Below the pieces are notes generated by a model. The model did no database searches, was not told the DNA's origin, and saw only the letters and a list, made by a program, of their open reading frames with translations. Positions 2,356 to 54,085 of a stretch of 64,000 bases of DNA are shown piece by piece. Every line of letters begins with the position of its first letter. Positions within the stretch are counted from its first letter, which is position 1. Made by a program: the position numbers and the translations under genes. Source of the stretch: Ectocarpus siliculosus (lineage: Eukaryota; Sar; Phaeophyceae; Ectocarpales; Ectocarpaceae); the NCBI GenBank assembly GCA_000310025.1, contig FN649735.1, positions 4,187,955 through 4,251,954 on the forward strand, in the 5' to 3' direction.

Positions 2356-2392
2356 TATGTTTTTTTTATAACCTTGGATTAGGTAAACCCCA

Positions 2393-2760
2393 GTTCGCCA
2401 GCGACACGGGTGCTTCCACTCATTGGCGCGTCCCGTGCTGATACGTGTTTGTCTGTTTTTTCGATGCGTTGGATACGGTGAACTCCACTTGCCAACAGCA
2501 CGGGTGCTTCCACTCATTGGCGCCTCCCTTGCTGAAACTGACAACACATATGCAGCGCTGGTGCTTCCACTCAATGGCGCATCCCGTGCTGATACTTGTA
2601 CGACTTCGTTTTCGATGCGTGGAGATCGGTCAACTCTACTCGCCAAAAGCACGGGTGCTCCCACCCATTGGCGCGTCCCGTGCTGATACATACGTGTACG
2701 GCTTTTGTTTTGTTTTGTTTTTCGTTGAGATCGGTTAACTCTACTCGCCAAACTGCCGCC
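2393..2760 (-). repeat. Hairpin-core minisatellite in unit A (4 cores)
   Basis: Four cores of about 37 bp occur at a spacing of roughly 60-90 bp. Each core in its full form is bounded by AGCACGGG and CCCGTGCT, a perfect 8-bp inverted pair around CGCGCCAATGAGTGG (read on the - strand). The spacers between cores are of a few recurring types. The same array is found in units B and C, and in expanded opposite orientation at 38035-39530. Confidence 0.8.
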
Positions 2761-5325
2761 GCTACTGCGTTAGGCGGCTTCTGCTGTGCTTCCGTTGCTC
2801 CACACGCTCTGTAGCTCTCACACGTTACCCGACTTTGCTACAGCCCCTGCGTGGACTCGATCACGGAATGACAACCCCAACTATAGACTAATAATTCCAA
2901 ACACCGTGACCCTGGGTGTCCGATAGAAATGAAGCCAAATTCTAATTCGACTGTTACAATATAAACACCAGTCTATTCTATCTGCTCGACGAACAAACCT
3001 TACTATTATTGCGCACTGGGCTGAGTCTTTGCCCTCTTTTTCCTGTGGTGGCGTGTTCCAGGGATTGCTCCAGGTGTTGACGTGTGACCTTGGGACACGA
3101 AGCGAAGTCGGAGAGCGCAGGACGTAATGGTCAGTGAGGCAGGTGTGATTCGGATAAGGGCGCATTTCTCTGTTCACGGATCTTCGCAGTGGGTATCCAC
3201 CAATGGAGAGGACTAATCACACGCTCGGAGCTCTGACCGAAGGGTTAGGAGTTCGTTGCGGAGCATACAACGTACGCCCAAACGCGGGTGAGGAGGACGT
3301 GGGGATGCCAGCGACGACGAAACAACGGTGGCCGAGGACATCGCTGCGACCTCACGAACAACCTCAACTTCCACCACATGTCGAATAGTGTCGGCAGCAC
3401 CGTGCGCGGACAACTCACCGGACGACATTAATAGACGAACCCTGTGAGTGAGTGTGTGTGGTATGGAGGATTCGGGGTAATTCGATTCCGTGGTTCGTGA
3501 AGCGTCTTAGATAATTTCTTTTTCAGTAGAGCGATGAAAGAGAGAGAGCCGCCGAGGTTCCAAAGCAAGAGTGGCGCGTTGCGTGCAGAAATCAGTAGGG
3601 TACGCCAGCAGCTACGCTACATTGGAGTCTTTCGTTGGGGCTTGATCGATTATTTCTTGGCACAAACAAGATGTACTCCCCGTTAGTCTACAATGTAGAC
3701 GTCTCGATCTACGTGTAACCACGTGCATGTTGTTATGTGGTAGTTTTTTTTTTTTATATTTCCGCGTGTTGTTGTTGGACGTTGGTACCTGGTCATGCCA
3801 GACAAGACCGACCCGCTGCCAAACAACGCGCTCCACGCCAGACAGACCCCAACGGTCCATACTCACGCCAATTGTCGGCCGTTGTGTACGATTTCGTTGC
3901 ACGCACTGGGCCTACAGAAGAAGGCAATCGTTTTTCACTTTACGGCGGCCATCACAACAACGGGCCGGAGCTGTCGGGACTGTCGGGACTGTCGGGTTCG
4001 CCCAGTGGTTACCCTCGACCGTCTGACGCCCACAAGAAGCACTGGCTGCAGCTGCTGGGGGGGACCCTGACCCTGCTGCTGCAGGTTGTTGCCGTTGTTC
4101 ATCACTCTGGCGTGTCTAGGACCAAAATTCGATCAAGTCCCAAACGAAAACTCTTTTCTCTCGCTGCTGCTTTGCTGCACTGCCTTTGCGGGCGATGCAA
4201 CGTTTTTCCCTTCGAGGTCCTCGGCTTCCCAAGGATCCCAAAAGCTTCTGCCAACCTCTCTCTCTTCTCTGTACCCTGTACATAGCTATACCCCCGTATA
4301 CCCTTTTTTGTCTCTCGCCGCTCTTTCACGAAATTTCCGGTACGCTTCCACAAACCACGGATTCACGGTTATACCGAATCCTTCGTGACACCGCTCACCA
4401 CGTAGCAGATTGCTGTAGACTATGTGGCACATAACAGCGCTTGCGTAGATGTGTAGATACCTGTTTTCGACAAGAAAATGAATAGAGTCTGAATGCAAGC
4501 GCCATAAGGAGCTGTACGAGGTTTCGTGTGAACGCTCACGCCACTCGCCGCCTCTTTGAACACACGCTCACATTTGTTTTACATTTATTTTTGTTCCGAC
4601 TGCGTCTTTTCCACAATAATTTTTCCCGCGCCTTGATCGTGTGCGAGATCGCGCGTGGGGTATCCGAGATAACCGCCCACCCTCTTGTCTCTCGCCCACC
4701 AGCTCACACACTCCATCTTGTCGCCCTATCTGCACTCCTGACCAGCGCAAGATACCGTCAACCCCCAAAGCGCACTGTGAGTATGATGCGGTTGTTCGAC
4801 GTTGCGGCAGCCTGTGTAAGTGTAGATGGTACCTGGTACGTGTGTGTATTGTTTTCGTTCTAGACATGTACATCCTGACAGCTCCTTCTGTCAACCCGAT
4901 TCTGTTCTGTACAAGAAGAGAACGTTTAAACAATTGTTTCCACCGGCAAGAGTGTGTGTGTGATGTTGGGTATTTGGGTTCTTTCTATGATACTTCATAG
5001 AATCTATCGAGTGGAAGGCGGTGCCAGCCATGATCGCCTCGCCCAAAAAGGGGAAAGAAAACAACTATGTACTGCTGTACACTACATAGTCTGAGAATGC
5101 CGGGTCTTTCTTCACAACAAACTCTGCCCCTAGTAGAGGGAGAACTCGTGAAGACTGTCGGAGAAATACACTGCGCTGTGTCAATTACCCCGAGCACTGT
5201 TTAGCCCTCCCCCGCTGCCTGGAAGTTTGCCCCGTCTCGTGATTACTTGGGTCATCTTTCGTACGCCTTACGTACGATGGTCTTTCCTATTCAGGTGTTC
5301 GGTTCTCAGCAATCTCAAGGTCAAG
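2761..5325. other. Upstream region of the unit A WSC gene
   Basis: This region is conserved in units B (23930-26173) and C (36383-36618 plus 42307-44282). It contains small conserved open frames, for example 61 codons at 3203-3388 (+) with 71 codons opposite at 3213-3428 (-). It also holds a short tandem CTGTCGGGA repeat near 3970-4000 (two to three copies depending on the unit). About 350 bp at 4042-4390 is absent from B and C. I cannot assign a gene or locate a promoter with confidence. Confidence 0.5.
3203..3388 (+). CDS. Conserved small ORF of unknown nature, unit A
   Basis: A 61-codon frame starting MERTNHTLGAL. Equivalent frames of the same length occur at 24392-24577 and 42520-42705 with only one or two amino-acid differences. 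The units are recent duplicates, so retention of a short frame is weak evidence. The opposite strand is also open in all copies (71 codons). No domain is recognised. It may be non-coding or part of an upstream exon. Confidence 0.2.
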   Translation: MERTNHTLGALTEGLGVRCGAYNVRPNAGEEDVGMPATTKQRWPRTSLRPHEQPQLPPHVE

Positions 5326-8300
5326 ATGCATCTCCTTTCACTGGCGCTACCGATGGTCCTTCTTGGGGTCGCGATTGGTGAGATATAAAGATGTAGCGTG
5401 CACACAAAGATCGGATTCACGGTCTTCCTCTCAATGTCCTAACAGTATCATGGATGTTTTCTCGGGGCTGAACAGGTACGTGCTCGTTACCTCAGCACCC
5501 AGAATTTACCGCTCCTAGAACTTCGGCGATAGAGTCGGGCACCCCGCGCTCACGGCAAAAGGGCGGGGTTCGCCAATGGTCTTGGGGAATCTTATTCGCT
5601 CACGAGTGTGTCCAAAATTGGTGGTTTCAGAGTTCTTGGGTTGTGCATGAGATCTCCGGACCCCATAATCATGCCAAGATTCTCAACGAGTGTGTCCTAA
5701 ATTGGTGGTTTCAGAGTTCTTGGGTTGTGCATGAGATCTCCGGACCCCATAATCATGCCACCATTCTCAACGACTGTCGACCACCAGCAGCAGGGCAGCG
5801 CCAGAGGCAGGTTGCTCGCCACTCGGTTGGCGGTTTCAGAGTTCTTGCGTTGTGCATGAGATCTCCGGACCCTACGATCATGCCAAGAATCTCAACGACT
5901 GTCGACCACCACCAGCAGGGCAGCGCCAGAGACAGGTTTCTCGCCACTCGGAGGAGCTGCGTCGATTCTCGAAGGGAGCTGTTGTATTCTACCCGTAGCC
6001 ATGACTCCGGATAAATGTGTCCAACCTCGGACAAATGGGTCTAACTTGTAGCAGCAACGCAATGATCACTGTGGTCCCTCATCCACTTGACTGTAAAGTG
6101 TTCAATTCTTCGAAGGATCAAAGGAAGCGCCCGAGGCCCGGGGCATAACCTCTCATGTAGGGAAAACAACTGCTCACCTCCGATTCTACGTACAGCCATC
6201 CGCCGAGGGTGGCAGCATATTTGTTCGTCCCTCGTGGGCCTTTGCACATGGGGCGTCTTGACAAAGGGTCTCTGCTCAGTTCGTGAGATCCGCGTCGTCC
6301 GATTAATGCCGGGGCAGGTCAGTCCGATGACCCATCTTACCTCGGGTGCTTCTCCGACCCTGCTGGCAACCGCGTCTTCAACATCTCGGATTCTACCTCC
6401 GCTATGACCGCAGAGGCGAGTGACCGATCGATGGGCGGAAACACGATACATTACATGTGTGCGCGTTTGTTTGGTTGCATTGCGTTGTCAGCGGGAAGGT
6501 TATAGGCGAGATGGATTGCGCTCTTCGAGTTGCCTGCTTGCGGCGGTTGTTGTTGCTGATGCTCTGCGGTATTCGCGAAGGATTTGTCCACCCTCTCGAA
6601 GTAGCTGCCAGTGACCCACCACCCCAGCGCTGCCATATTTCCATCTGCGAACGTCACCCCTCCCCTGTGCGGACTTTCGACCGCCTCGCGTGCATACACA
6701 CGACCCTTCGACGACAGGCCTGTTCCGAGCTCTGCCCTGACTCGGCTTTCTATGGCACCCAGTACTCGACAGAGGTAAGAATGTCAGATTCGAAACTATC
6801 TGCGTCAGGCACTGATCAACGGTGGGGTGGCGTGCGAGAGATCGCCACAGCAAGGCTTAGATGTGGTGCTGATACCGGGGATGGACGTTGCGGACCCACG
6901 TGCATGATTACATGGTCACACTTGGGCGCCATGCCTTCTCTATACCTGCAAACAACGACAGGGAGGTCTCAACGTTTCAGCCGTTGCACTTTGGCTTCCC
7001 TAAGCCATCGGGTTTGGTAGGTCCCCGCTATGCATCTCTTGGCTGGTTGTTCGCTTCTTGATACGCTGTAGCCTTCCCTTGACGCCACACAACATCAGAG
7101 GTCAGTGTTTCTTCCTTTGGCATGACCATATCGGACTGTATAGACTAGACGATAACACACACACACAAGTTGAAACCGTTGCCGCACGATCGGGACCACT
7201 CCGTAGACGCGTCCTTCGTGAATCCACATTAATTTCATTTGTTGCTTTTCTCGGCCGTTGCTCGGCGGCACCGCCACCGCCAAGCATACCCTTCTCCGCT
7301 CACTCTGCATAGTACAGAGCGCCGCATGCCACTCTCGAACCCACGACACCATCTCACACCACCCTTTGCACCCAAAACCTTTCGCCGTTTCCCCAACACA
7401 GTGCTGGTGCGGTGACAACGTCGGATACGCCGACAACGGCGACGGCGTCTGCGACATGGCTTGCTCCGGCAACTCTGATGAGATATGCGGCGGATCCTAC
7501 GCCCTCTCCGTATACTCGAACGACCCCAATTACCTTGGGTGCTGGAGCGATCCCCACACGGCGGACACGCGGCTGTTTTCCATCCAGATCGATTCATCGG
7601 AGGACATGACTACTGCGGTGAGGGGCCAGCGTACGTAGAATAACGATTGTTCTTTTACAACCACGCCCGCTGTAGTTGAGTTTGGGTTTCGTCTCTCCGC
7701 AATGTCGGCACTGTCCGGTGGTGTTGTTCCATGTTTTGAAGCCAAACCGTATTTGGTACGTGAAGAGCAACGTGGGGTTGCAGTATTGTCCACCAGCATG
7801 GCCGAAGAGGCCAGGAAATATCAATCACCTTGCATGCTATGGCCGGGGATGGAGATAGAAAAAATGTTGACGATCTTCCTATCCGGGGGGTAGACGAGTC
7901 GAGTCGCCATCTCGAAACCACTCGCGGCATAAAATATTGATTACGAGTGGTTTATACCACGAAAGAGAAGTTTCATTGCCGTGCACAAGAATGAGCGGAA
8001 GCTCCAGAGCGCGTGAAGAGACAGCAGTGGCGACCCAACATGCTGTAGGTGGCGGCAGACCGGCATTTTCCCGCCCTCCTACAATCGGTTTTCTTCGAAA
8101 TTCGGGTAATACGTTCGGGGATATTCGGGCTCTAGTCGAGGAGTTGGTCGCGTGGTGCGTATCAGTTGGGGACTTCGCCTGTTTGAGTCCTTCTGTGGCG
8201 AGATGATGTTCGTTCCGTGTGGTTCTCTTGCGAGCGTGTCGCCTAGAAACCGAAATGGCACACGACGCCATTCGCAAGAAGAACCATATGCCGGGGTTAT

Positions 8301-11300
8301 CAATACGTCTCTCTTCAGCGCCCACCGTGACGACAGCGCAACTGTCAAGTCGACGTCACAACACAATACGAATTGCATGCTGACGTCGCCGCACGTACTT
8401 TGTATCATCATGTTGAGTTGGCCTTCGCGCCACTACTGATGGGCACATGGATGCTCACTCAGCTCGGAAAATAATGCACCATACGACGCCCGTCTGTTTC
8501 GCCACACTGCAGGTCTGTGAAGGTCTCTGCGCCGACTATCCGTTGTACGGAACGCAGTATTCCACTGAGGTGAGAAGAGAGATACACCAGTAGAGTGAAC
8601 TTCTCGGACGCCTGACGCTTGGAGAGGACAAGCTGGCTGAAACAGAGAACGTGCACGAACACGTATGGCAGAAACCGACGCAATCATGCCGCACGCATCG
8701 TTGTGAAGACGAAACGTACTTGTCCTTTTCCTCTCTGCCCCGGCCATATCTGCTCGTATGTGGCACGCGTTGTTTTCTCGAGACAGTGCTGGTGCGATGA
8801 CGGGACGGCCGACTATGAGCGGAATGGTCCGGCCGTCTGCGACTTCCCCTGTGCTGGATCCTCCGACGGCGAGTTCTGCGGCGGGTTTGACGCCATGTCT
8901 ATCCGCCAACACGAAGTGGAGAATCCCTACTACCGTGGATGCTACTCCGACCCGGCCGACAACCGCATCTTCGAGCTGGTGACTTCCTCTAGTGACATGA
9001 CCGCGGAGGTGAGCAACAAGCAAGCCTGGGGTCGTGGGTTGAGCTATTGATGTGGTCATGCGCCGCTGTCACAAGGCGTGGTATTGTTGCGGATTCGTGG
9101 TATGTCTGAACACGTACCGTGGCTGCTACTCCGACCCCGCCGACAACCGCGTTTTCGTGCAAGACGATTCGTCTGACGCCATGACCGCAGAAGTGAGCGG
9201 GAGAGCGATAGATGCGTGAAAGCGGTTGTTTTCGGTTGCGTGTATTTGTTCAGCATGGTGCTGACGTGGGCGGCGTGCTCTGTGCTAGGGTTTGGAAAAA
9301 TGTGAATTTGCCGCTGCATGATTCCCGATGTCGATACCGCGTTGGCATCGCCCGTGAATGGTCAGAGGCTCTCGAAATCGACGCGGAAGTCACTTCACCA
9401 TCGCTGCAACCAGCCCTCGACGGTGCTCTTGGTTGGCAATGCCCCTAACTACTCCTTTCCCCGTCGTCCTGATGATCGATCATTGGGTTACGAAATGTTT
9501 ACAGCTCTGCGCGTCGGAATGCTCCAACTCGGCCTTCTATGGAACACAGTACTCGACAGAGGTGAGGTCGTTGTCACAGTGTACTACTGTAGTCTCCGAC
9601 TATGCCATCGGGATGGGTTCGGGTTTGTGAACCTTTCCGCAGTCGCTCTTCTTGCCTCTTGGTGCTCTGTCGCGGGTGATATGGTATTGACCTATATCGT
9701 GTGTCCCCAAAGGGTGTTCTCAAAAGGGGACAGACATATACCCGGGTCGGGCCGGGTATTAGGGGGCGTTTTTGGTTGTTCCTGCTGCCTCCCGTGTTGC
9801 GTCACTCGTCCTGACACCACGGCACACATCAATACGCCTTCCTTCATTTTGTCCAAGCGTCAACACCATGAATATGCATCATCTTGCCTCATGAGAAGAC
9901 CAAACCCCCCTCTCCTCCGTATGTACCACCCTTGTCGCCTCACTGTACCACCCCGTCGAAAACAGTGCTGGTGCGGGGACATCAATGCCCCATACTCGGT
10001 CAACGGCGAAGGTGTGTGCGACATGCCCTGCTCCGGTAACTCCGACGAAACCTGTGGGGGATCCTTCAACATGGATGTCTACGCCCACGACCCCGCGTAC
10101 CTTGGGTGCTTCTCGGACCCAGCCGACGGCCGCATTCTCGTGTGGGAGAGCTCTACCTCCTCTATGACGGCAGAGGTGACTCAATTTTGTTTCCGATCAA
10201 AAGTCGTTTCGTCGTTTCCAGCACGCTCACATGCCAACAGGAATAATGCGCAGTCGAAATGTGTGCTTCGTTTTTGTTGTTGCTGTCGTTGTTGCTGCTT
10301 TTCGTGTTTTCCCGGCATCGTTTAGTGCTTGTACACAAAGCGTCAAACGTGTTCGCTATCAACTCACCCCGACCTTCTCCCTTTTCGATTTGGTCCTCAC
10401 TTCTTCCCGGCCCCCTACCCGAACAATCGACCATTGCTTGCGCACGCTCGCACATGACCAAGCAATCAGGTCTGCGCCTCGGTCTGCAGCAGCTCGGCCT
10501 ACTATGGAACCCAGTATTCTCAAGAGGTACGGGCTCTTCTAGGCGTGTCCAAAGGGTGTCAGCCGTTCGTTATGGGGTACTGTTGCACAAGAAACATGGT
10601 CGTAAGAGCGTGTCGAGCGCTCTTGTAGGCCGTGGGTGACAACGGCGGTCAGTGTAACTTGGTTCCGAAGCTTTTGGCAAGGATTGTAGTTGGCGTACTG
10701 TAGTTGCTGGCCCATCCTCGATGAATCTCAAATGCCTCAAAGCCGTGCCCAGTCATGATGACGTGCCTGTGCCCTTGAGAATGGAAAACGTCTTGGCTTC
10801 ACCCAGTCGTACCTCGGCTACTTCAAGTCACCGAGGGACGTACCAGTACCGTTTCTGTGTAGTTTTTCTGCCTTCACTTACCGTCTCTATGCCGGCGAAA
10901 TACGTGCGAAAGGATTGGAAATGATACTTGCAGATGAGTCTGTTTCTGGACAATCAAAGGATGACGAATGGCACGAACGGAGCATCGCCATGATTCAACG
11001 ACTTGATTTGCTCGTCGCGTTCTCCAGAACCAGTCAGGAGCGCAACTTGTGTGCATTGATTTCGAACATTGCGGCCGCATCTCGGTGCTTTTGTTCTGAA
11101 ACCGCCACCACTGCCAGATCACCAATCTCACCTGGCTTCGTGCAACACCGTACCTCGCCAATGCGGCCCATCTTCAGCATGATGAGACCCGTGCGCCCCT
11201 CCTGTTCACACCCCCTTGCATACTGATGCCGCTGCATGAAACAGTGCTGGTGCGGTGACAACGCCGACTACGCTGCCAACGGTTTCGGCGTCTGTGACAT

Positions 11301-11370
11301 GCCCTGCTCGGGCAACTCCGACGAGATGTGTGGTGGTGCCTACACCATGTCGGTGTACCAAGCACTCTAA
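5326..11370 (+). CDS. Secreted four-WSC-domain protein, unit A (10 exons)
   Basis: Probable extracellular carbohydrate-binding protein. Predicted exons are 5326-5377, 6318-6415, 6718-6774, 7402-7617, 8513-8569, 8787-9008, 9505-9561, 9966-10175, 10470-10526 and 11245-11370 (stop TAA), 383 codons in all. Exon 1 encodes MHLLSLALPMVLLGVAIG, a typical signal peptide; its intron is phase 1 and all others are phase 0. Each WSC domain is assembled from the end of one large exon (YLGCxSDP...MTAE), a 57-nt exon (CxELC...YGTQYSTE) and the start of the next large exon (CWCGDN...VCDMxCSGNSDEICGG). There is no transmembrane segment or catalytic domain. Intron 2 uses a GC donor (GAG|GCGAGT). Exons are flanked by good CAG acceptors and GTGAG/GTAAG-like donors. 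A remnant of a lost module lies in intron 6. The WSC assignment is firm; ligand and function are unknown. Confidence 0.87.
5600..5950 (+). repeat. Tandem repeat in intron 1 of the unit A WSC gene
   Basis: The motif GGTTTCAGAGTTCTTGGGTT followed by GTGCATGAGATCTCCGGACC recurs at about 5622, 5706 and 5831, giving units of about 84 to 125 bp. Unit C has three copies (44584, 44668, 44792) and unit B two (26470, 26554). The copy number difference lies within an intron and does not affect the protein. Confidence 0.8.
9106..9192 (+). pseudogene. Remnant WSC exon (deleted module), unit A
   Basis: The sequence from TYRGCYSDPADNRVF to MTAE and its donor (GAA|GTGAGC) matches the end of unit C exon 8 (49109-49330). 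The preceding 57-nt exon and most of the large exon are gone. The join is after GGTATGT, with a 2-bp TC microhomology between the two ends as seen in unit C. A cryptic acceptor at 9074-9075 (CACAAG|GCG) would give an open phase-0 exon 9076-9192, so the remnant might still be spliced in. Confidence 0.75.
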
Positions 11371-12515
11371 AATCCCGTCCACGTGTTTGCTTCATCGAGG
11401 TATGCAGCCACCATCATTCCCTCGGAAGATAACAAGATGGGCAAACATTTTCTCATGGATAGTAGACGGCAGAACTATACCGCGCGCCTGCAATTGTTCA
11501 TAGAAGGTTCCTTCTTCTGCTCGAGCAGGACGCGCGGAAGGAAGACCCATGAGTACGGCAAGCAATGTGGTCTAGTAGAGGAATCGTGAACTCCAAAATC
11601 TAGCAGATTAGATAGTCCGTCTATGCAGCGACAGTCTGATTGGCTGCTGCAGGACACAAGCGATATTTCTTGAGTGCTGCCCCTGGCGATGGCGACACAA
11701 CTCTAGGGATACTGCCCGTGCCTTCAATCCCTCCACCAGCCAGTCAGCATGCCAACGAAACCAGCCGCGACGAGCCGGTGAACGCCGGGCCCACAAATCG
11801 CGTGTTAGGCGCTAGTGCAGTGGATCATAGAGATTTCCTAGGGTCACGTGACAACGCTCGTAGTGTAGCCCTAACCCTAACCCTAACCCGAAGTGATGCG
11901 ATTACTTCCGGTCTCTGGCAAAAGTGACCTCTAATCATGTACACTAATCCTCGATGCTGCCATGGACTCTTTGTTCTCCGGCAGAAACGTCGCCGACTTC
12001 GGGCTGTTCCACAAAACTTGGTGTCCGCACGAGCGAAGCGAAAGCCAGTCGTGCTCCTCGACGCACGTAGTGAAGCTCGGTCGGTGTTGGAATATGTGCG
12101 ACATCAACAAGGGTTAAGGATGCACTGCACGATTTGAAGCAGAGGGACAGGTTTCCCAAGATATATCGGCAACGTAGAGTATGTCGGGCTATTGGCTTTG
12201 GAGGGGTATCGAAAGCGCACGCGGAGGAAGGATTGGTGATGTACCGTTCGACCGGTGCTTGGATGTCAGGTGTTCGGGTTGTTCCTGAACAATTAATGGG
12301 CCCGGGATGAGAAGGAAGGTTTTTCACGGACAGTACAGTATTCAGAAGTAGAGTAGGAAGCAGCGAAATAGAGGGAGAAGAAACACCACAAGGTGGTATC
12401 AACACGAATGACTATTGAGCATGTGGACATGGCAGAATCAAGGGACAACAATGTCTCGGAGTACCGGAGATGTGGACCATGGTCGGCGAGGGTCGGTTCG
12501 CAATCGCCGCTCTAC
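11371..12515. other. 3' region of the unit A WSC gene
   Basis: Conserved in B and C. It holds a short telomere-like tract at 11869-11889 (three CCCTAA repeats plus CCC). It also has an ATG-led frame at 11961 that ends at a TAA codon near 12117, where unit C stays open for 71 codons (52097-52312, Cys-rich, no known domain). The - strand frame at 11944-12405 is also open in B but has a stop in C. I do not assign a gene. Confidence 0.5.
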
Positions 12516-13012
12516 TGTTCCAGACAAGCTTATATCTCTCTTTTAACCGGGATAGTTACCTCTCACCTGGGCACAGACAATAAGCTATATCTGTGGAGAT
12601 CGATCATGTAGGACAATCAAGCGGTGGTACGACTTCAAGCGGGTTATCGGTGACGTCTAACAGCAGTCATACGGTTCCTCATAAGCTCGATAATCAGCGT
12701 ATCAGGTTCAGCACTCACAAGGGTTGGCAGTTGATCAGGCACAAAGGCAAGGGTATGGCTTAGTTTTTCTCGCGTGATCGGCGGTGGTAACTAACCACCT
12801 GGGAGTTGGTCGGGAAGGCACGCCGAGGGAGGCGGTGCAATCCCGGGGGTCAGGGGACATGTCCTGAACCCCCCCAACAGGCTGGACCGGGGGAACATAA
12901 TAGGTCTGTTCGAATCCCCGGTCATTACAGCCCGCGCCCTCCGGATACTTCGCGACCATAGCAGAGCATCCATCATCGTATTAAGAACCGGTTGGGCCGT
13001 CCGGCCGGAACA
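12516..13012. mobile_element. Solo-LTR-like insertion present only in unit A
   Basis: 497 bp beginning TGTTCC and ending GGAACA, flanked by CTAC on both sides (12512-12515 and 13013-13016). Units B (about 32941) and C (about 52651) have a single CTAC at the same place with uninterrupted flanks, so this is an insertion with a 4-bp target duplication. The TG...CA ends and lack of coding capacity fit a solo LTR. A short-terminal-repeat MITE is the alternative. Confidence 0.75.
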
Positions 13013-14440: not shown

Positions 14441-14479
14441 TACCATCTACATTATTTAGACATAATATGCGAGTTCTCA

Positions 14480-14910
14480 TGGGAATTCGCATGTGGTTAT
14501 GACCTCTCATGAGAGCTCAGGAGAGCCCATGATAGCTAAATGAGCTCTCATGAAAGCTCATGAGAGCCCATGAGAGAGAGCTAATTTAGCTCTGATGAGC
14601 TCTGATGAGCTGATGAGACTCATGAGAGCTTTTGAGAGCTTTTGATAGCTTATGAGAGGCCATGAGAGCTAAATTAGCTCTCTCTCATGGGCTATGAGAG
14701 CTAAATCTAATGAGAGCTCATGAGAGCCCACTAGAGCTCATTTAGCTCTCATGAGAGCTCATGAGAGCCCATGAGAGCTAAATGAGCTCTCATGACAGCT
14801 AATGAGTTCTCATGAGCTCTGAGAGCTCGTGAGCTCTCGTGGGCTCTCATGAGCTCTCATGGACTCTCATGAGAACCCATGAGACTCCCGGAGACTCCTA
14901 GAGACTCACT
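14480..14910. repeat. Palindromic AGCTCTCATGAG-type minisatellite, unit A only
   Basis: Dense, irregular repetition of GAGCTCATGAG, CTCTCATGAG and GAGAGCCCATGAGAGC. Many units are self-complementary (GAGCTC, CTCATGAG), so the whole stretch can fold on either strand. B lacks it (the segment 14010-17040 is missing there) and C diverges just before it. Confidence 0.85.
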
Positions 14911-17735: not shown

Positions 17736-17753
17736 GCGGGAGAGCCCGCACCC

Positions 17754-21206: not shown

Positions 21207-21243
<37 letters not shown>

Positions 21244-34638: not shown

Positions 34639-34656
34639 GCGGGAGAGCCCGCACCC

Positions 34657-40783: not shown

Positions 40784-40876
40784 GGGTGCGGGCTCTCCCG
40801 CGTAGCGGGGGGGGCTACCTCGGATGGCAGCGCACCTGCGGCTAAATCGAACGGCAGCACGCCGGTCTACACGAGG

Positions 40877-41929: not shown

Positions 41930-42029
41930 AACAATGTAGAGGATTCGCGGCGAGTGTCACGGAAACTTACAGACGGCAGTAGGATCGTACCGAGACAGCC
42001 GGGGGAGGGGACCGTCTGGGGGAACGGAT

Positions 42030-42306
42030 AGTTGACTTATTCGGTAGTCGTCCAGAAACTGACCTCGATGTGGGTGTTGTAGAATGGGGTGTACCATTTG
42101 AGGACTTGGTCAGTTTTGGGACTCCTGCGTTTGCAGTCGTAGTCCCCCCGGCTAGTATTTGTGGGGGAGAGAGATGGATTTGTAAGAGTTGATGCCGGCC
42201 TTTGCAGCTAACGCGGCCGGAGAGACGATGAGCGTTTCGTGCGTCTCTCTCCCCAACACGTAGCCTAGAAACCGAAGAAATAATGAAGCAATTCGAAAGA
42301 AAACAA
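42030..42306 (+). repeat. 3' terminal region of DIRS-like element
   Basis: Contains GTACCATTTGAGGACTTGG, a GGGGGAGAGAGA purine run, the complementary CTCTCTCCCC and the terminal AATTCGAAAGAAAACAAAAT. The same series is found at 59440-59690 and, inverted, at about 16330-16570. It is recognisable but diverged in the 1382-1618 / 2119-2355 pair. Confidence 0.7.
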
Positions 42307-44282
42307 AATAAACATTCCTATTATTGCGCACTGGGCTGAGTCTTTTGCCCTCTTTTTCCTGTGGTGGCGTGTTCCAGGGATTGCTCCAGGTGTTGACGTG
42401 TCACCTTGGGACACGAAGCGAAGTCGGAGAGCGCAGGACGTAATGGTCATGTGAGGCAGGTGTGATTCGGATAAGGGCGCATTTCCCTGTTCACGGATCA
42501 CCGCAGTAGGTATCCACCAATGGAGAGGACTAATCACACGCTCGGAGCTCTGACCAAAGGGTTAGGAGTTCGTTGCGGAGCATACAACGTACGCCCAAAC
42601 GCGGGTGAGGAGGACGTGGGGATGCCAGCAACGACGAAGCAACGGTGGCCGAGGACATCGCTGCGACCTCACGAACAACCTCAACTTCCACCACATGTTG
42701 AATAGCGTCCGCAGCACCGTGCGCGGACAACTCACCGGACGACATTAATAGACGAACCCTGTGGGTGAGTTAGTGTGTGTGGCATGGAGGATTCGGGGTA
42801 ATTCGATTCCGTGGTTCGTGAAGCGTCTTGATAATTTCTTTTTTCAGTAGAGCGATGAAAGAGAGAGAGCCGCCGAGGTTCCAAAGCAAGAACGCCAATA
42901 GCTACGATACATTGTAGTCTTTCGTTGGGGCTTGGTCGATTATTTCTTGGCACAAACAAGACGTACTCCCCGTTAGTCTACAATGTAGACGTTTCGATCT
43001 ACGTGTAACCACCTGCATGTTGATATGTAGTTTTTTTTATATATTTCCGCGTGTTGTTGTTGGACGTTGGTACCTGGTGATGCCAGACAAGATCGACCCG
43101 CTGCCAAACAACGCGCTCCACGCCAGACAGACCCCAACGGTCCATACTCACGCCAATTGTCGGCCGTTGTGTACGATTTCGTTGCACGCACTGGGCCTAC
43201 AGAAGAAGGCAATCGTTTTTCACTTTACGGCGGCCATCAAAACAACGGGGCTGTCGGGACTGTCGGGACTGTCGGGACTGTCGGGTTCGCCCAGTGGTTT
43301 ACCTTGACCGTCTGACGCCCACAAGAAGCACTGAGCAGACGAGCAGACACCGCTCACCGGTAGCAGATTGCTGTAGACTATGCGGCACATAACAGCGCTT
43401 GCGTAGATGTGTAGATACCTGTTTTCGACAAGAAAATGAATAGAGTCTGAATGCAAGCGCCATAAGGAGCTGTACGAGGTTTCGTGTGAACGCTCACGCC
43501 ACTCGCCGCCTCTTTGAACTTTGAACACACGCTCACATTTGTTTTACATTTATTTTTGTTCCGACTGCGTCTTTTCCACAATAATTTTTCCCGCGCCTTG
43601 ATCGTGTGCGAGATCGCACGTGGGGTATCCGAGATACCCGCCCACCCTCTTGTCTCTCGCCCTCCAGCTCACACACTCCATCTTGTCGCCCTATCTGCAC
43701 TCCTGACCAGCGCAAGCTACCGTCAACCCCCAAAACGCACTGTGAGTATGATGCGGTTGTTCGACGTAGCGGCAGCCTGTGTAAGTGTAGATGGTACCTG
43801 GTACGTGTGTGTATTGTTTTCGTTCTACATGTACATCCTGACCGCTCCTTCTGTCAACCCGATTCTGTTCTGTACAAGAAGAGAACGTTTAAACAATTGT
43901 TTCCACCGGCAAGAGTGTGTGTGTGATGTTGGGTATTCGTTCTATGATACTTCATAGAATGTATCGAGTGGAAGGCGGTGCCAGCCATGATCGCCTCGCC
44001 CAAAAAGGGGAAAGAACCCAACTATGTACTGCTGTACACTGCATAGTCTGAGAACGCCGAGTTTTTCTTCACAACAAACTCTGCCCCTAGTAAAGGGAGA
44101 ACTCGTGAAGACTGTCGGAGAAATACACTGCGCTGTGTCAATTACCCCGAGCACTGTTCAGCCCTCCCCCGATGCCTGGAAGTTTGCCCCGTCTCGTGAT
44201 TACTTGGGTCATCTTTCGATCGCCTTACGTACGATGGTCTTTCCTATTCAGGTGTTCGGTTCTCAGCAATCTCAAGGTCAAG
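42307..44282. other. Upstream region of the unit C WSC gene
   Basis: Colinear with units A and B from the CATTCCT point onward. It keeps the 61-codon frame (42520-42705), and the CTGTCGGGA repeat has one extra copy near 43250-43280. No gene is assigned. Confidence 0.5.
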
Positions 44283-47200
44283 ATGCATCTCCTTTCACTG
44301 GCGCTACCGATGATCCTTCTTGGGGTCGCCATTGGTAAGATATATAAAGATGTAGCGTGCACACAAAGATCGGATTGATGGTCGTCCTCTCAATGTCCTA
44401 ACAGCATCATGGATGTTTTCTCGGGACTGAAGAGGTGCGTGCTCGTTACCTCAGCACCTAGAATAAACCGCTCCGAGATCTTCTCGGCGATAGAGTCGGG
44501 CACCCCGCGCTCACGGCAAAAGGGCGGGGTTCGCCAATGGTCTTGGGGAATCTTATTCGCTCACGAGTGTGTCCAAAATTGGTGGTTTCAGGGTTCTTGG
44601 GTTGTGCATGAGATCTCCGGACCCCGTATTCATGCCAAGATTCTCAACGAGTGTGTCCTAAATTGGTGGTTTCAGAGTTCTTGGGTTGTGCATGAGATCT
44701 CCGGACCCCATAATCATGCCAAGGTTCTCAACGACTGTCGACCACCAGCAGCAGGGCAGCGCCAGAGGCAGGTTGCTCGCCACTCGGTTGGCGGTTTCAG
44801 AGTTCTTGCGTTGTGCATGAGATCTCCGGACCCCACGATCATGCCAAGAATCTCAACGACTGTCGACCACCACCAGCAGGGAAGCGCCAGAGACAGGTTT
44901 CTCGCCACTCGGAGGAGCTGCGTCGATTCTCGAAGGGAGCTGTTGTATTCTACCCGTAGCCATGACTACCGATAAATGTGTCCAACCTCGGACAAATGGG
45001 TCTAACTTGTAGCAGCAACGCAATGATCACTGTGGTCCCTCATCCACTTGACTATAAAATGTTCTAATCTTCGAAGGATCAAAGGAAGCGCCAGAGGCCC
45101 GGGGCATAACCTCTCATGTAGGCAAAACAACTGCCCACCTCCGATTCTACGTACAGCCATCCCCCGAGGGTAGTAGCATATTTGTTTGTCCCTCGTGGGC
45201 CTTTGCACATGGGGCGTCTTGACAAAGGGTCTCTGCTCAGTTCGTGAGATCCGCGTCGCCCGATTGATGCCGGAACAGGTCAGTCCGATGACCCATCTTA
45301 CCTCGGGTGCTTCTCCGACCCCGCTGGCAACCGCGTCTTCGAGATCTCGGATTCTACCTCCGCTATGACCGCAGAGGCGAGTGACCGATCGATGGGTGGA
45401 AACACGATACATAACATGTTGTGCGCGTGTGTTTGGTTGCTTCGCGTTGTCAGCGGGAAGGTTATAGGCGAGATGGATTGAGCTCTTCGCGTTTCCTGCT
45501 TGCGGCGGTTGTTGTTGCTGATGCTCTGCGGTATTCGCGCAGGATTTGTCCACCCTCTCGAAATAGCTGCCAGTGACCCACCACCCCAGCGCTGCCATAT
45601 TTCCATCTGCGAACGTCACCCCTCCCCTGTGCGGACTTTCGACCGCCTCGCGTGCATACACACGACCCTTCGACGGCAGGCCTGTTCCGAGCTCTGCCCT
45701 GACTCGGCTTTCTATGGCACCCAGTACTCGACAGAGGTAAGAATGTCAGATTCGAAACTATCTGCGTCAGGCACTGATCAACGGTGGGGTGGCGTGCGAG
45801 AGATCGCGACAGCAAGGTTTAGATGTGGTGCTGATACCGGGGATGGACGTTGCGGACCCACGTGCATGATTACATGGTCGCACTTGGGCGCCATGCCTTC
45901 TCTATACCTGCAAACAACGACAGGGAGGTCTCAACGTTTCAGCCGTTGCACTTTGGCTTCCCTAAGCCGTCGGGTTTGGTAGGTCCCCGCTATGCGTCTC
46001 TTGGCTGGTTGTTCGCTTCTTGATATGCTAACCTTCCCTTTGCGCCACACAACATCAGAGGTCAGCGTTTCTTCCTTTGGCATGACCATATCGGACTGTA
46101 TAGACTGGATGAAAACACACACACACACACAAGTTGAAACCGTTGCCTCACGATCGGGACCACTCCGTAGACGCGTCCTTCGTGAATCCAGATTTATTTC
46201 ATTTGATACTTTTCTCGGCCGCTGCTCAGCGGCACCGCCACCGCCAAGCATACCCTTCTCCGCTCACTCCGCATAGCACAGAGCGCCGCATGCCACTCTC
46301 GAACCCACGACACCATCTCACACCACCCTTTGCACCCAAAACCTTTCGCCGTTTCCCAAACACAGTGCTGGTGCGGTGACAACGTCGGATACGCCGACAA
46401 CGGCGACGGCGTCTGCGACATGGCCTGCTCCGGCAACTCTGATGAGATATGCGGCGGATCCTACGCCCTCTCCGTATACTCGAACGACCCCAATTACCTT
46501 GGGTGCTGGAGCGATCCCCACACGGCGGACACGCGGCTGTTTTCCATCCAGATCGATTCATCGGAGGACATGACTACTGCGGTGAGGGGCCAGCGCACGT
46601 AGAAAAGCGATTGTTCTTTTACAACCACGCGCGGTGTAGTTGAGTTTGGGTTTCATCTCTCCGCAATGTCGGCACTGTCCGGTGGTGTTGTTCCATGTTT
46701 TGAAGCCAAGCCGTATTTGGTACGTGAAGAGCAACGTGGGGTTGCATTGTTGCCCACCAGCATGGCCGAAGAGGCCAGGAAATATCAATCACCTTGCATG
46801 CTATGGCCGGGGATGGAGATAGAGAAAATGTTGACCATCTTCCTATCCGGGAGGTAGACGAGTCGAGTCGCCATCTCGAAACCACTCGCGGCATACAATA
46901 TTGATAACGAGGTTCATACAACGAAAGAGAAGTTTCATTGCCGTGCACAAGACTGAGCGGAAGCTGCAGAGCGCGTGAAGAGACGGAAGGACAGCAGTGG
47001 CGACCCAACATGCTGTAGGTGGCGGCAGACCGGCATTTTCCCGCTCTCCTACAATCGGTTTTCTTCGAAATTCGGGTAACACGTTCGGGGATATTCGGGC
47101 TCTCGTCGAGGAGTTGGTCAAGTGCGTATCAGTTGGGGACTTCGCCTGTTTCGGTGCTTCTTCTGTGGCGAGATGATGTACGTTCCGTGTGGTTCTCTTG

Positions 47201-50200
47201 CGAGCGTGTCGCCTAGAAACCGAAATGTCACACGACGCCATTCGCAAGAAGAACCATATGCCGGGGTTATCAATACGTCTCTCTTCAGTGCCCACGGCGA
47301 CGACAGCGCAACTGTCAAGTCGACGTCACAACACAATACGAATTGCATGCAGACGTCGACGCACGTACCTTGTATCATCATGTTGACTTGGCCTGTGCGC
47401 CACTACTGATGGGCACATAGATGCTCACTCAGCTCGGAAAACACCGCCATACGACGCCCTTCTGTTTCGCCACACTGCAGGTCTGTGAAGGTCTCTGCGC
47501 CGACTATCCGTTGTACGGGACGCAGTATTCCACTGAGGTGAGAAGAGAGATACACCAGTAGTGTGAACTTCTCGGACGCCTGACGCTTGGAGAGAACAAG
47601 ATGGCTGAAACGGAGAACGTGCACGCACACGTATGACAGAAACCGACGCAATCATGCCGTACGCATCTTTGCGAAGACGAAACGTACTTGTCCTTTCTCT
47701 CTCTGCCTCGGCCATATCTGCTCGTATGTGGCACGCGTTGTTTTCTCGAGACAGTGCTGGTGCGATGACGGGACGGCCGACTATGAGCAGAACGGTCCGG
47801 CCGTCTGCGACTTCGACTGTGTTGGATCCTCCGACGGCGAGTTCTGCGGCGGGTATGACGCCATGTCTATCCGCCAACACGAAGTAGAGAACCCCTACTA
47901 CCTTGGATGTTTCTACGACCCGCCCGACAACCACATCGGCGAGCCTGCGGCTTCCTCTAGTGACATGACCGCGGAGGTGAGCAACAAGCAAGCCTGGGGT
48001 CGTGGGTTGAGCTATTGAGGTGGTCATGCGCCGCTGTCACAAGGCGTGGTATTGTTGCGGATTCATGGTATGTCGTTGCTCACCCGTTGTCACGAAGCGT
48101 TCACGGATCATCGTCGGACCAACACGCCACCGCCGCCCACCACACTTCGATGTCGCTCTCCGTTCGCTTGGCTTCCTCACATCGACAATTGGCTTCGCCC
48201 CCACGTGAAAAACCGACCCAGGTCTGCTCGGAGCTCTGCAGCGCGTACCAGTATTACGGAACGCAGCACTCGACCGAGGTGAGGCGTCCACGATGCACCA
48301 CGAGTAACCAAGCGTGGATCGTGGGTCGTGAAGTAGCGAGTGGTGGTGGAACTGCATCATGGACGTTGCAATGGGCTTTCAGCAACCACGCCATTGCCCT
48401 TGTCCTGGTGGCTTTTGTGAGTCACCGATGTTCCTCGGATCATGTCGGTTCCGCACGCTGTCGTTCGCTCCTCTGTGCACCGCCCCGTTACTCAATGCAC
48501 CACCCATGGGAGTTGTGGCGTACGCGCATGCCGTGCGCCACGAACAATATACAACTAGCCCACATTGAACAAGGTCGACGCACGGTGTGGAGGACCAGCG
48601 GGTCGGCGCTTCCTTCGACCACACTCGTTAACTGGAAATCGTGTGCTGTTCTCTCCCGCCAGTGATTGAAAAGTCGGGCTGTTTGGTTCCCGTCCGCGTC
48701 TCTCGCTGTCTATTAGGTTTTGGTAAAAGCCTCACGAAGGCGAGCTACAGTAGTACATATCACCCGTCCCAGAAGCTGTCGCGGAACGTGCTGGTTCGGC
48801 GAAAAAGCTCAAAATATTTTTGTTCTCGCTCGGTCAGTATCCAGGTTATGGGACGGACGTTTGTTATTATTCCAGCATATCGGCTGACTCACGACCGCTT
48901 GTACGCACCCCAGATCCTGCTGTTTCTTGGTCTGCTGCTGCTATGACAACCGTTCTCGAACTCCGCACCATCACGATATCGCCCACCTACCACGCGTTTC
49001 CGTATTGTAGACTTACATGTCATGTACGGCACGATGCCGCCATGAAACCCCTGCCCTCCCGATCACTGTACCCTCCCCCCCCGTTCTCGACAATGCCGAA
49101 CGCAACAGTGCTGGTGCGGTTATGATTTCACCGGCTACTCCAACGCTGTCGTAGCCGTCTGCGACATGCCCTGCTCGGGCGACTCAAACGAGATTTGTGG
49201 AGGCTTCAACAGCAAGAGTGTCTACGAGACCGAAAACATCATTCTGAACACATACCGTGGCTGCTACTCCGACCCCGCCGACAACCGCGTTTTCGTGCAA
49301 GACGATTCTTCTGACGCCATGACCGCAGAAGTGAGCGGGAGAGCGATAGATGCGTGAAAGCGGTTGTTTTCGGTTGCGTGTGTTTGTTTAGCTTTGTGCT
49401 GACGTGGGCGGCATGCTCTGTGCTAGGGTTTGGAAAAAAAGTGAATATGCCGCTGCATGATTCCCGATGTCGATACCGCGTTGGCATCGCCCGTGAATGG
49501 TCAGAGGCTCTCGAAATCGACGCGGAAGTCACCTCACCATCGCTGCAACCAGCCCTCGACGGTGCTCTTGGTTGGCAATGCCCCTAACTACTCCTTTCCC
49601 CGTCGTCCTGATGATCGATCATTGGGTTACGAAATGTTCACAGCTCTGTGCGTCGCAATGCTCCGACTCGGCCTTCTTTGGAACGCAGTACTCGACAGAG
49701 GTGAGGTCGTTGTCACAGTGTACTACTGTAGTCTCCGACTATGCCATCGGGATGGGTTCGGGTCTGTGAACCTTTCCGCAGTCGCTCTTCTTGCCTCTTG
49801 GTGCTCTGTCGCGGTTGATCTGGTATGGCCCTATATCGTGTGTCCCCAAAGGGTGTTCTCAAAAGGGGACAGACATATACCCGGGTCGGGCCGGGTATTA
49901 GGGGCGTTTTTGGTTGTTCCTGCTGCCTCCCGTGTTCCGTCACTCGTCCTGACACCACGGCACACATCAATACGCCTTCCTTCATTTTGTCCAAGCGTCA
50001 ACACCATGAATATGCATCATCTTGCCTCATGAGAAGACCAAACCCCCCTCTCCTCTGTATGTACCACCCTTGTCGCCTCACTGTACCACCCCGTCGAAAA
50101 CAGTGCTGGTGCGGGGACATCAATGCCCCATACTCGGTCAACGGCGAAGGTGTGTGCGACATGCCCTGCTTGGGTAACTCCGACGAAACCTGTGGGGGGC

Positions 50201-51492
50201 CCTACAACATGGATGTCTACGCCCACGACCCCGCGTACCTTGGGTGCTTCTCGGACCCAGCCGACGGCCGCATTTTCGAGTGGGAGAGCTCTACCTCCTC
50301 TATGACGGCAGAGGTGACTCAATTTTGTTTCCGATCAAAAGTCGTTTCGTCGTTTCCAGCACGCTCACATGCCAACAGGAATAATGCGCAGTCGAAATGT
50401 GTGCTTCGTTTTCGTTGTTGCTGTCGTTGTTGCTGCTTTTCTTATTTCCCGACATCGTTTAGTGCTGGTACACAAAGCGTCAAACGTGTTCGCTACCAAC
50501 ACACCCCGACCTTCTCCCTTTTCGATTTGGTCCTCACTTCTTCCCGGCCCCCTACCCGAACAATCGACCATTTCCGGCGCACGCTCGCACATGACCAAAC
50601 AACCAGGTCTGCGCCTCGCTGTGCAGCGGCTCGGCCTACTATGGAACCCAGTATTCTCAAGAGGTACGGACTCTTCTAGGTTGTCGACCGTTCGTTATGG
50701 GGTAGTGTTGCACAAGAAACATGGTCTTAGGAGCGTGTCGAGCGCTCTTGTAGGCCGTGGGTGACAACGGCGGTCAGTGTAACTTGGTTCCGAAGCTTTT
50801 GGCAAGGATTGCAGTTGGCGTACTGTAGTTGCTGGCCCATCCTCGATGAATCTCAAATGCCTCAAAGCCGTGCCCAGTCATGATGACGTGCCTGTGCCCT
50901 TGAGAATGGAAAACGTGTTGGCTTCACCCAGTCGTACCGTGGCTACTCCAAGTCACCGAGGGACGTACCAGGACCGTTTCTGTGTAGTTTTTCTGCCTTC
51001 ACTCACCGTCTTTATGCCGACGAAATACGTGCGAAAGGATTGGAAATGATACTTGCAGATGAGTCTGTTTCTGGACAATCAAAGGATGACGAATGGCACG
51101 AACGGAGCATCGCCATGATTTAGCGACTTGATTTGATCGTCGCGTTCTCCAGAACCAGTCAGGAGCGCAACCTGTGTGCATTGATTTCGAACATTGCAGC
51201 CGCATCTCGGTGCTTTTGTTCTGAAACCGCCACCACTGCCGCATCACCAACCTCACCTGGCTTCGTGCAACACCGTACCTCACCAATGCGGTCCATCTTC
51301 AGCATGATGAGACCCGTGCGCTCCTGTTCATACCCCCTTCCATACTGATGCCGCTGCATGAAACAGTGCTGGTGCGGTGACAACGCCGACTACGGTGCCA
51401 ACGGTTTCGGCGTCTGCGACATGCCCTGCTCGGGCAACTCCGACGAGATGTGTGGTGGTGCCTACACCATGTCGGTGTACCAAGCACTCTAA
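44283..51492 (+). CDS. Secreted five-WSC-domain protein, unit C (12 exons)
   Basis: The most complete copy. Exons are 44283-44334, 45279-45376, 45680-45736, 46366-46581, 47481-47537, 47755-47976, 48222-48278, 49109-49330, 49644-49700, 50104-50313, 50607-50663 and 51367-51492, 476 codons. The signal peptide differs from A and B by one residue (PMILL). Intron 1 is phase 1, the rest phase 0. Exons 7 and 8 (VCSELCSAYQYYGTQHSTE and CWCGYDFTGYSNAVVAVCDM...) supply the WSC domain missing from A and B. Intron 2 again uses a GC donor. The end of exon 6 is unusually different from A and B (YYLGCFYDPPDNHIGEPAA against YYRGCYSDPADNRIFELVT). No membrane anchor or enzyme domain is seen, so the protein is predicted to be secreted and to bind wall or extracellular polysaccharide. 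That role is inferred from the WSC family. Confidence 0.88.
44570..44910 (+). repeat. Tandem repeat in intron 1 of the unit C WSC gene
   Basis: Three copies of the motif described at 5600-5950, at about 44584, 44668 and 44792. Confidence 0.8.
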
Positions 51493-54085
51493 AATCCCGT
51501 CCACGTGTTTGCTTCATCGAGGTATGCAGCCACCACCATTCCCTCAGAAGATAACAAGACGGGCAAACATTTTCTCATGGATAGTAGACGGCAGAACTAT
51601 ACCGCGCGCCTGCAATTGTTTGTAGAAGGTTCCTTCTTCTGCTCGAGCACGACGCGCGGAAGGAAGACCCATGAGTACGGCAAGCAATGTGGTCTAGTAG
51701 AGGAATCGTGAACTCCAAAATCTAGCAGGTTGGATAGTCCGTCTAAGCAGCGACAGTCTGATTGGCTGCTGCAGGACAGTAGTCGTATTTCTTGAGTGCT
51801 GCCCCTGGCGATGGCGACACTCCGTCGACACAACTCTAGGGATACTGCCCGTGCCTTCAATCCCTCCACCAGCCAGTCAGCATGCCAACGACACCAGCCG
51901 CGACGAGCCGGTGAACGTCGGCCCCACAAATCGCGTGTTAGGCGCTAGTGCAGTGCATCATGGAGATTTCCTAGGGTCACGTGACAACGCTCGTAGTGTA
52001 GCCCTAACCCTAACCCTAACCCGAAGTGATGCGATTACTTCCGGTTTCTCTGGCAAAAGTGACCTCTAATCATGTACACTAATCCTCGATGCTGCCATGG
52101 ACTCTTTGTTGTCCGGCAGAAACGTCGCCGACTTCGGGCTGTTCCACAAAACTCGGTGCCCGCACGAGCGAAGCGATAGCCAGTCGTGCTCCTCGACGCA
52201 CCTAGTGAAGCTCGGTCGGTGTTGGAATATGTGCGACATCAACAAGGGTTACGGATGCACTGCACGAATTGAAGTAGAGGGACAGGTTTCCCAAGATATA
52301 TCGGCAGCGTAGAGTATGTCGGGCTTTTGGCTCTGGAGGGGTATCGAAAGCACACGCGGAGGAAGGATTGGTGTACAGTTCGACCGGTGCTTGAATGTCG
52401 AGTGCTCGGATTGTTCCTGAATAGTTAACGGGCCCGGGATGAGAAGGAAGGTCAAGGTTTTTCACGGACAGTACAGTATACAGAAGTAGAGTAGGAAGCA
52501 GCGAAATAGAGGGAGACGAAACACCACAAGGTGGTATCAACATGACGGACTATTGAAGGTGTGTACATGGCAGAATCAAGGGGCAACAATACCTCGAACT
52601 ACCGGAGATGTGGACGACGGTCGGCGAGGGTCGGTTCGCAATCGCCGCTCTACCTATTCATGCCGGTCAGGTTGTCAACTAGCGCCACCACCAGCAGGGC
52701 AATCTTGCAGCATGGCCGTATCCGCCTCGGCTATCATATCTGGAGTGTCGACAGGATGCATGTAGAGCAGTACGAGTATTGTAGTTGGTCCGAAGACCTC
52801 ATTCGGTGTTGGTGTAGGGAATCGTTGGAGCTGCGGTGGTCGCGTCGAGTAGACGGGCACGTGGAGACTGACGAAAGATCTGCAGGGTATCTGAGCTGGT
52901 GCTGCTATGTTCGCTGCAGCCACAGATTCTTGGGGGGTTTCCATTGGAGTGGGAGTGCTGATGTTGCGTGCTTTGAAGCAATTCTGTCGATAGGACATCG
53001 CTAACAGTAGGTACTACAGTAGGATACGAAACACGTGTGTGAATGATATGCATCCTCAAAACCCGTTGCGGGTTGTCAGTGCTAGAGTGAGTCCACGTAG
53101 GGCGTACATGCGAATCTAACCCGCCCTGCGCTGACCCGAATACCAAGCGAGTACTGTTAAAGAAAGGAGTTGTGTCTCAGGTGTTGTCGCGACCGCACAA
53201 ACCGTGGGACCTAGATTTTCACTGCCTTTGCGATTGTTTTCTCACGGTGGTGCTGGTCCCTAACGAACAACCTATCGCTTCCAGGACGAGATCTCACATA
53301 GAATCCATATGCAATGCTGTCGGAATATAGTTATGTCCAGTACCTGAGCAGGTGTCCCAGTCGCGCGTTGTGCGTCGCTATCCGAGCAATACGATGCGGG
53401 TTACATTTTCTACCATGCTGTAGAGGTTGGGGCTCGGTAGGTGAAATACCGTTGACGCGGGGATGGCTCAAGACCGCCCCCTCCGCCCTCTGCCTCCTCC
53501 TCAAGACGTTCCTATGGCCTGGGTGACTCAGGTATACGCACCGCGGGCAAACAGACCCCAACGTACAGCACATCACAGTTGACCGGAAGGCCATTAGTGC
53601 AAGCAGCCCTTTGACCCCCGGGGCTGACTATCTGAGGTTCTGTAGAAAGGTTTCGCCGTCCAGACTGGCACAGGCGATTGGCAATGTCTGCCAAAAGCAA
53701 AAACGGCCAGCATAGGCTTGGACCCTCATTACAGTCCAGGCCGGGCCTAGAACACTGGATACTCAGGTGAGGCCGTCATTCACTATGCTCCTCGTGCCAT
53801 GACTACCGCAACATCCGACGTACACAAAATTCTCCCCATTCTGCCGGCAGCTGCGGGACTCTCGACGCGAGCACCACACGCGCTTGAGTGTCGAGATGTG
53901 AAACCCCTGGAGCTTTCTTACCTCGCTCTAGCGCCCGCAGCGTTGTGTCTGTTTCGAGCTAAACACACGCTCCTCTTCTGAATGACGGCTACAAATGTTA
54001 TTGTTATTGGTGTTGTTGTCGTCGTCGTTGTTGTTGTTGTCGACATCGTTGTTTTTGGTCGTCAGTGTCGTTCGTGGTGTTTGTT
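51493..54085. other. 3' region of the unit C WSC gene
   Basis: Colinear with A 11371-14436 without the solo-LTR-like insert. It has a CCCTAA tract at 52002-52022. The 71-codon frame 52097-52312 (Cys-rich, with ...RCWNMCDINKGYGC...) is open here but stopped by TAA in A and B. A TTG/GTC microsatellite lies near 53997-54045. Confidence 0.5.
52097..52312 (+). CDS. Cys-rich small ORF, open only in unit C
   Basis: 71 codons starting MDSLLSGRNVADFGLFHKTR with six cysteines. Units A and B share all but a few residues but carry TAA in place of the TAC tyrosine codon after DINKG. It could be an ancestral coding fragment lost in A and B or a chance frame. No domain is recognised and no splice sites were identified. 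Confidence 0.25.
   Translation: MDSLLSGRNVADFGLFHKTRCPHERSDSQSCSSTHLVKLGRCWNMCDINKGYGCTARIEVEGQVSQDISAA

Follow-up and report, generated by a model that had tools for sequence, protein, structure and literature searches.

How many copies of a multidomain WSC gene stand in tandem on contig C10 of the brown alga Ectocarpus siliculosus, and are all of them still intact? We analyzed a 64-kb window (the whole stretch of DNA under study, C10:4187955-4251954) and searched the assembly from which it comes (G000, 189 Mb in 492 contigs). The initial annotation of the window described three tandem units, each carrying a complete gene for a secreted, lectin-like WSC protein. The array is larger and less uniform than first noted, with four units, two predicted protein forms and one broken gene. 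We consider it likely that these units, in the order Z-A-B-C, grew by unequal crossing-over, with one loss of a WSC module and later exchange between units.

Layout of the array

Self-BLAST of the window, which contains no N anywhere, confirmed three direct units on the same strand, arranged head to tail. These units and the two large inserts that separate or interrupt them are as follows:

2354-18917, plus strand: unit A, 16.6 kb, delimited by self-BLAST; it has fragments of its own of ~0.35 kb (4039-4386) and ~0.5 kb (12516-13012), at sites that are empty in B, plus a long tail
18917-23367, no strand assigned: long terminal repeat (LTR)-type element between A and B, 4,451 bp, with 187-bp terminal repeats that are 99.5% identical and the target site duplication TACGG
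23367-35819, plus strand: unit B, 12.45 kb, shorter than A by 401 bp in intron 1 and by 3,027 bp in the tail
35819-54078, plus strand: unit C, 18.3 kb with its 5.7-kb insert counted; it closes the array on the right
36618-42307, no strand assigned: insert present only in C, containing a minisatellite with a period of 250 bp (38036-39310) and, in inverted orientation, a copy of the tail element (39684-42312)

Long blocks are 92-98% identical between units, with one exception at 85% (the tails of A and C), and the aligned units are 94.4-96.6% identical (~94-97% overall, the copies being ~3-6% apart). Homologous ATG codons lie at 5326, 26174 and 44283, as had been annotated, and their start-to-start distances are 20,848 bp from A to B and 18,109 bp from B to C. 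Removal of the LTR-type element, whose site is empty in B and Z, and of C's ~5.69-kb insert leaves periods of ~16.4 and ~12.4 kb, in agreement with the values first proposed. The 3-kb deletion that had been noted in B is also real, measuring 3,027 bp and lying at A 14013.

The copy number of three is correct for the window, but the array has a fourth unit, Z, upstream of it (C10 4171.4-4183.8 kb; about -16541 to -4119 in window coordinates). In the 40 kb of left flank that we fetched, an extra piece of Z lies at -24374, left of an LTR-type insert, and the interval between Z and A consists of an insertion and a 2,671-N assembly gap ending at the window start. No further unit follows C in the rest of the window or the next 20 kb. 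Among the matches listed for the gene region of A (the best 40 of 185 candidates), those of at least 1.4 kb at 88-100% identity lie only on C10, at Z, A, B and C, and matches off C10 are at most 1.6 kb long at 68% or are short pieces of up to 90%. These contiguous direct copies, which include introns and intergenic DNA, support a tandem segmental duplication of a secreted-type WSC gene. The earlier account of expansion by segmental duplication stands as to the duplication but omits the loss of a domain in two copies, the lost frame in one and the signs of exchange described below.

Gene models and the missing WSC module

The predicted genes and the features that distinguish them are as follows:

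5326-11370, plus strand: WSC gene A, 10 coding exons (5326-5377, 6318-6415, 6718-6774, 7402-7617, 8513-8569, 8787-9008, 9505-9561, 9966-10175, 10470-10526, 11245-11370), 383 amino acids, a signal-peptide-like start and four WSC domains
26174-31791, plus strand: WSC gene B, 10 coding exons, 383 amino acids, four WSC domains
44283-51492, plus strand: WSC gene C, 12 coding exons including 48222-48278 and 49109-49330, 476 amino acids, five WSC domains
A 6416-6417 (B 26863, C 45377), plus strand: GC splice donor after coding exon 2, common to Z, A, B and C
C 48075-49242, plus strand: WSC module of ~1.17 kb carried by C and Z; A lacks it at 9105 and B at 29559
A 9105-9192 (B 29559-29646), plus strand: leftover exon part without a normal acceptor

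Gene Z has 12 homologous exons, 476 codons and five WSC domains with one stop, a TGA at codon 191 that falls at the position of C's CGG-motif cysteine. The open frames first reported for all copies hold for A, B and C, over 10-12 exons, but not for Z. All modeled introns have AG acceptors, and all have GT donors save the GC donor after coding exon 2. The Pfam WSC family (PF01822) matches four stretches of protein A (200.1 bits) and five of protein C (250.6 bits; curated cut-off 27.8), and Pfam finds no domain other than WSC in these two predicted proteins. Eight cysteines and the CGG motif are present in 17/18 domains of Z, A, B and C, the exception being the Z domain that holds the stop. Introns split each WSC domain in phase 0 at the same two places, leaving between them a mini-exon of 57 nt in 18/18 cases (among paralogues, one is of 60 and one of 63 nt). 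By reading, an N-terminal hydrophobic stretch resembles a signal peptide and no membrane helix or cytoplasmic tail is evident in the predicted proteins, which end in GGAYTMSVYQAL and the stop, right after the last WSC domain (VYQAL). The likeliest product would be a secreted protein of the cell wall that carries several WSC domains, and whose splicing, secretion and cell-wall role we infer.

Contrary to the initial annotation, the downstream exons do not all repeat and the splice sites are not all kept. Exon C 48222-48278 is wholly, and exon 49109-49330 partly, missing in A and B, which have also lost the acceptor of the exon matching the latter. A whole mini-exon was deleted together with the acceptor and the 5′ part of the exon that follows it, and the breakpoints of this deletion, with ~2-bp microhomology, are identical in A and B. 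Joining A 9008 to 9505 (B 29462 to 29959) would skip the leftover half-exon, keep the frame because the flanking introns are phase 0, and yield a chimeric domain with eight cysteines.

Because the C module best matches the middle CWC exon in six of eight outgroup loci (L007, L008, L009, L010, L011 and L013, among L007-L014 fetched from a larger number listed), its absence in A and B most likely reflects loss. An insertion of the extra module into C was rejected on the same match. The exon finder used for these loci was limited by length and motif, and its counts and lengths are partly set by construction: it gave five CWC exons in L007, L011 and L012 (in L012 by order only), five with one broken in L008, four in L009, L010 and L013, and three in L014, which has no module-type match. 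L009, L010 and L013 keep the module-type exon, and by eye another domain is missing from them.

Three further features lie in or near the genes. A tandem repeat with 84/125-bp units occupies part of intron 1 (5602-5951 in A, 44563-44912 in C and 26450-26625 in B, where the 125-bp part is missing). An open reading frame (ORF) of 170 amino acids (13424-13936 in A, also open in B) was rejected as a second gene, because stops interrupt its homologues in Z and C and the ORF of A has no Pfam match. The third lies upstream of gene A:

4683-4786, plus strand: putative 5′ untranslated exon or promoter region of gene A; dispersed paralogues conserve it to about GTGAGT at 4777

This block (query positions 297-400) is matched twice in C244 and also in C139 and C4, and is probably a 5′ untranslated exon.

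Exchange, rival histories and constraint

The two deletions are distributed among the units in conflicting ways. The module is present in Z and C and missing in A and B, the tail is long in A and in C (at least to A 14441) and short in Z and B, and all four combinations therefore occur. The tail deletion also has one set of breakpoints, with ~2-bp microhomology, and an independent origin of the shared deletions was set aside as improbable because the breakpoints are the same. Among 123 informative sites, 81 group ZC|AB, 25 ZA|BC and 17 ZB|AC. The ZC|AB share is 60/84 up to A 11000 vs 1/11 at 11001-12515 (P = 1e-4, for a cut at 11000 picked after the bins were viewed). The terminal units are most diverged at their outer edges: in the 5′ flank, Z is ~93% identical to the others, which share 97-98%, and in the outer tail C is the outlier (91-93% vs 94-96%). 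Private changes show the same pattern, with 51/73 in the 5′ flank vs 85/301 in the gene for Z (P = 1e-10) and 45/90 in the outer tail vs 63/301 in the gene for C (P = 2e-7). Such edges are expected if crossovers joined C-type heads to Z-type tails into inner units. Together, the non-tree-like sharing and the diverged outer edges indicate that the units have probably recombined.

Starting from the observed units, their insertions and deletions, the open frames of A, B and C, the edge pattern and the presence of the module in outgroup loci, we infer the order and direction of exchanges as follows. The ancestral gene would have had five WSC domains, and the array would have started from a two-copy state whose left edge is now in Z and whose right edge is now in C. 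Unequal crossing-over would then have added inner units with C-like 5′ flanks and Z-like tails. One deletion before the A/B split would have removed a WSC module, and splicing past the leftover half-exon would fuse one half each of domains 3 and 4 into a complete domain with eight cysteines, leaving a protein of four domains. The two deletions would later have been mixed by exchange between units, and Z would have gained its stop.

Several observations weigh against this history. The adjacency of Z and A is only as good as the scaffolding. Instead of skipping the leftover half-exon, splicing might use in-frame alternative acceptors that exist before it (A 9074; B 29504, 29528) or inside it (B 29615). 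The ZC|AB grouping returns beyond 13013 (20/28 sites), a runs test gives P = 0.11 up to 12515, and the P = 0.004 of the runs test over all sites leans on an indel-rich block near 13029-13167. Finally, B and Z are not the closest pair in the tail adjoining their shared deletion (96.78% vs 97.39 and 97.53%), so any tract exchanged between them would be short.

Two other histories have to be weighed against an array with exchange. Tandem duplication could have been followed by strictly branching descent, one of the shared deletions having arisen twice; the 81/123 informative sites that back a single tree fit this, as do the runs test up to 12515 and the distance between Z and B beside the tail deletion. 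We nonetheless find it distinctly unlikely, since the breakpoints of each deletion coincide between units, with a microhomology of only ~2 bp, the favored tree shifts at 11001-12515, and the terminal units are outliers at their outer edges. An assembly artefact, in which two haplotypes, or copies that had been wrongly multiplied, were joined into a false tandem, appears very improbable. The gap between Z and A would suit it, but A, B and C lie within 64 kb of gap-free sequence, the copies differ by ~3-6%, and there are copy-specific insertions, at least one of which (18917-23367) has a target duplication and clean empty sites. Nor would an artefact leave the terminal edges as the most diverged parts.

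Whether the copies are maintained is a separate matter from how they arose. Over the 10 shared exons, dN/dS between copies (P values uncorrected for six pairs) is 0.30 for A-B (P = 0.005), 0.50 for Z-A (P = 0.03), 0.56 for A-C (P = 0.08), 0.56 for Z-C (P = 0.16; 0.79 over 12 exons, P = 0.37), 0.69 for Z-B (P = 0.20) and 0.75 for B-C (P = 0.28). Against the paralogues L007, L011 and L012, it is 0.20-0.38 over part of the exons, a few outgroup exons overrunning the likely donor by up to 12 nt. At the level of coding sequence, long-term constraint on the WSC family is shown, and constraint between the recent copies appears modest and clear only for A-B. The retained function that had been suggested for the copies is in keeping with the open frames of A, B and C, but dN/dS is clearly below 1 only for A-B and marginally so for Z-A, and Z has a stop.

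One possibility, compatible with the duplication history, is that most copies are decaying by near-neutral drift and that the array is a by-product of repeat-rich DNA. The stop in Z, the domain lost by A and B, the nearly equal exon and intron divergence of A-C (0.0392 and 0.0403) and the lack of a significant departure below 1 in 4/6 dN/dS comparisons all favor decay. We regard it as doubtful, although not negligible, given that the 10-12 exons of A, B and C read through without a stop and encode every WSC cysteine, that exon divergence is about half of intron divergence for A-B (0.0202 vs 0.0367) and Z-C (0.0193 vs 0.0359), and that dN/dS is low for A-B and against paralogues.

If domain number matters for cell-wall binding, the array would be a natural variant set with five domains, four domains and a broken gene. 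A bolder idea, which we consider unlikely, is that such arrays form a self-editing repertoire, tuning how many WSC domains a protein has (3, 4 or 5 in the loci seen) and in which order, to yield variable extracellular proteins. With phase-0 introns at the same two points and a 57-nt mini-exon, crossover or deletion between modules would give a complete chimeric eight-cysteine domain, and the variable proteins might perhaps serve in recognition of self, partners or pathogens.

Inserts, gene family and known systems

Two smaller features belong to the units themselves:

17040-18917, minus strand: unit tail with part of a dispersed element (B 33943-35813; Z -6188 to -4295)
12516-13012, no strand assigned: A-specific insertion of 497 bp whose ends read TGTTCC...GGAACA, with CTAC repeated on both sides, as seen by eye

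After C there is no close copy of the tail element, only a ~69-71% relative at 58236-59488. The dispersed element has long ORFs that look recombinase- and RNase H-like by eye (57649-59488, 40670-42143 and, on the minus strand, 16323-17867). Four of its ORFs were tested and had no Pfam match, nor did the zinc-knuckle-like ORF of the LTR-type element; the names tyrosine recombinase and gag for ORFs of the tail and LTR-type elements are our own unconfirmed assumption. The minisatellite in the C insert (38036-39541, ~250-bp period, 5 copies) resembles, in inverted orientation, the left edges of the units at ~77-87% (2374-2751, 23558-23934 and 36007-36384). To the right of the array lies a reverse-transcriptase element (60504-63943, with PF00078 in 61849-62385), of which a copy lies to the left at C10 ~4151.2-4154.3 kb, mostly 77-80% alike with one inverted piece at 72%. 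Telomere-like tracts of the (CCCTAA)3 type occur in the 3′ flanks of A (11869-11889) and C (52002-52022), where shuffling predicts none, and B has no match within 3 mismatches. Low-complexity CTCATGAGAG-like units and inverted repeats occupy 14506-14884 in the tail of A, within the stretch missing from B.

Dispersed and clustered relatives of the multi-WSC gene are found on C139, C244, C21, C14, C4, C25, C30 and C41, several of them on the short contigs C139 and C244, and the dispersed paralogues with 3-5 WSC domains show that the family is older than the array. Across the genome there are at least 102 WSC matches and at least 150 matches to EsV_1_7_cys (150/150 scored candidates, 880 at first look), the expansion of EsV-1-7 being one that we take to be typical of brown algae. 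Such gene content would fit an Ectocarpus-like alga.

WSC-domain proteins have been identified among brown-algal cell-wall proteins, according to a figure legend in a review (PMC8307928). The array proteins resemble these in their above-cut-off match to PF01822, their eight cysteines and CGG motif and their signal-peptide-like start, and differ in that the predicted proteins consist solely of WSC domains by Pfam. They share the cysteine-rich WSC domain of yeast Wsc1-type sensors (7PZ2; PMC9024836; phmmer of protein A, E = 6.3e-5), for which eight cysteines and CGG features are described. In contrast to these sensors, they have 4-5 WSC domains instead of one and, by reading, neither the membrane anchor nor the cytoplasmic tail. 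The same source describes the Wsc1 domain surface as having no apparent site for ligands such as glycans, and the label "lectin-like" for the array proteins rests on the WSC family name. The WSC proteins of Serendipita indica (PMC9252488) are also of secreted type and are enriched in the extracellular glycan matrix, but they belong to another kingdom, and the excerpts consulted describe no array or mini-exon architecture for them.

A literature search, with most subscription papers outside its reach, found no publication on this WSC array. Tandem gene arrays evolve by unequal crossing-over and gene conversion, and this type of event is already known: the array is a case of ordinary gene-family growth, although an instructive one. 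It offers a readable example of how an algal gene array gains copies, drops a domain with the frame apparently intact and swaps sequence between copies. Like tandem arrays in general, it has head-to-tail units, conflicting shared deletions and most diverged outer edges. Nothing fundamental sets it apart from them, save that here the number of WSC domains also varies between units.

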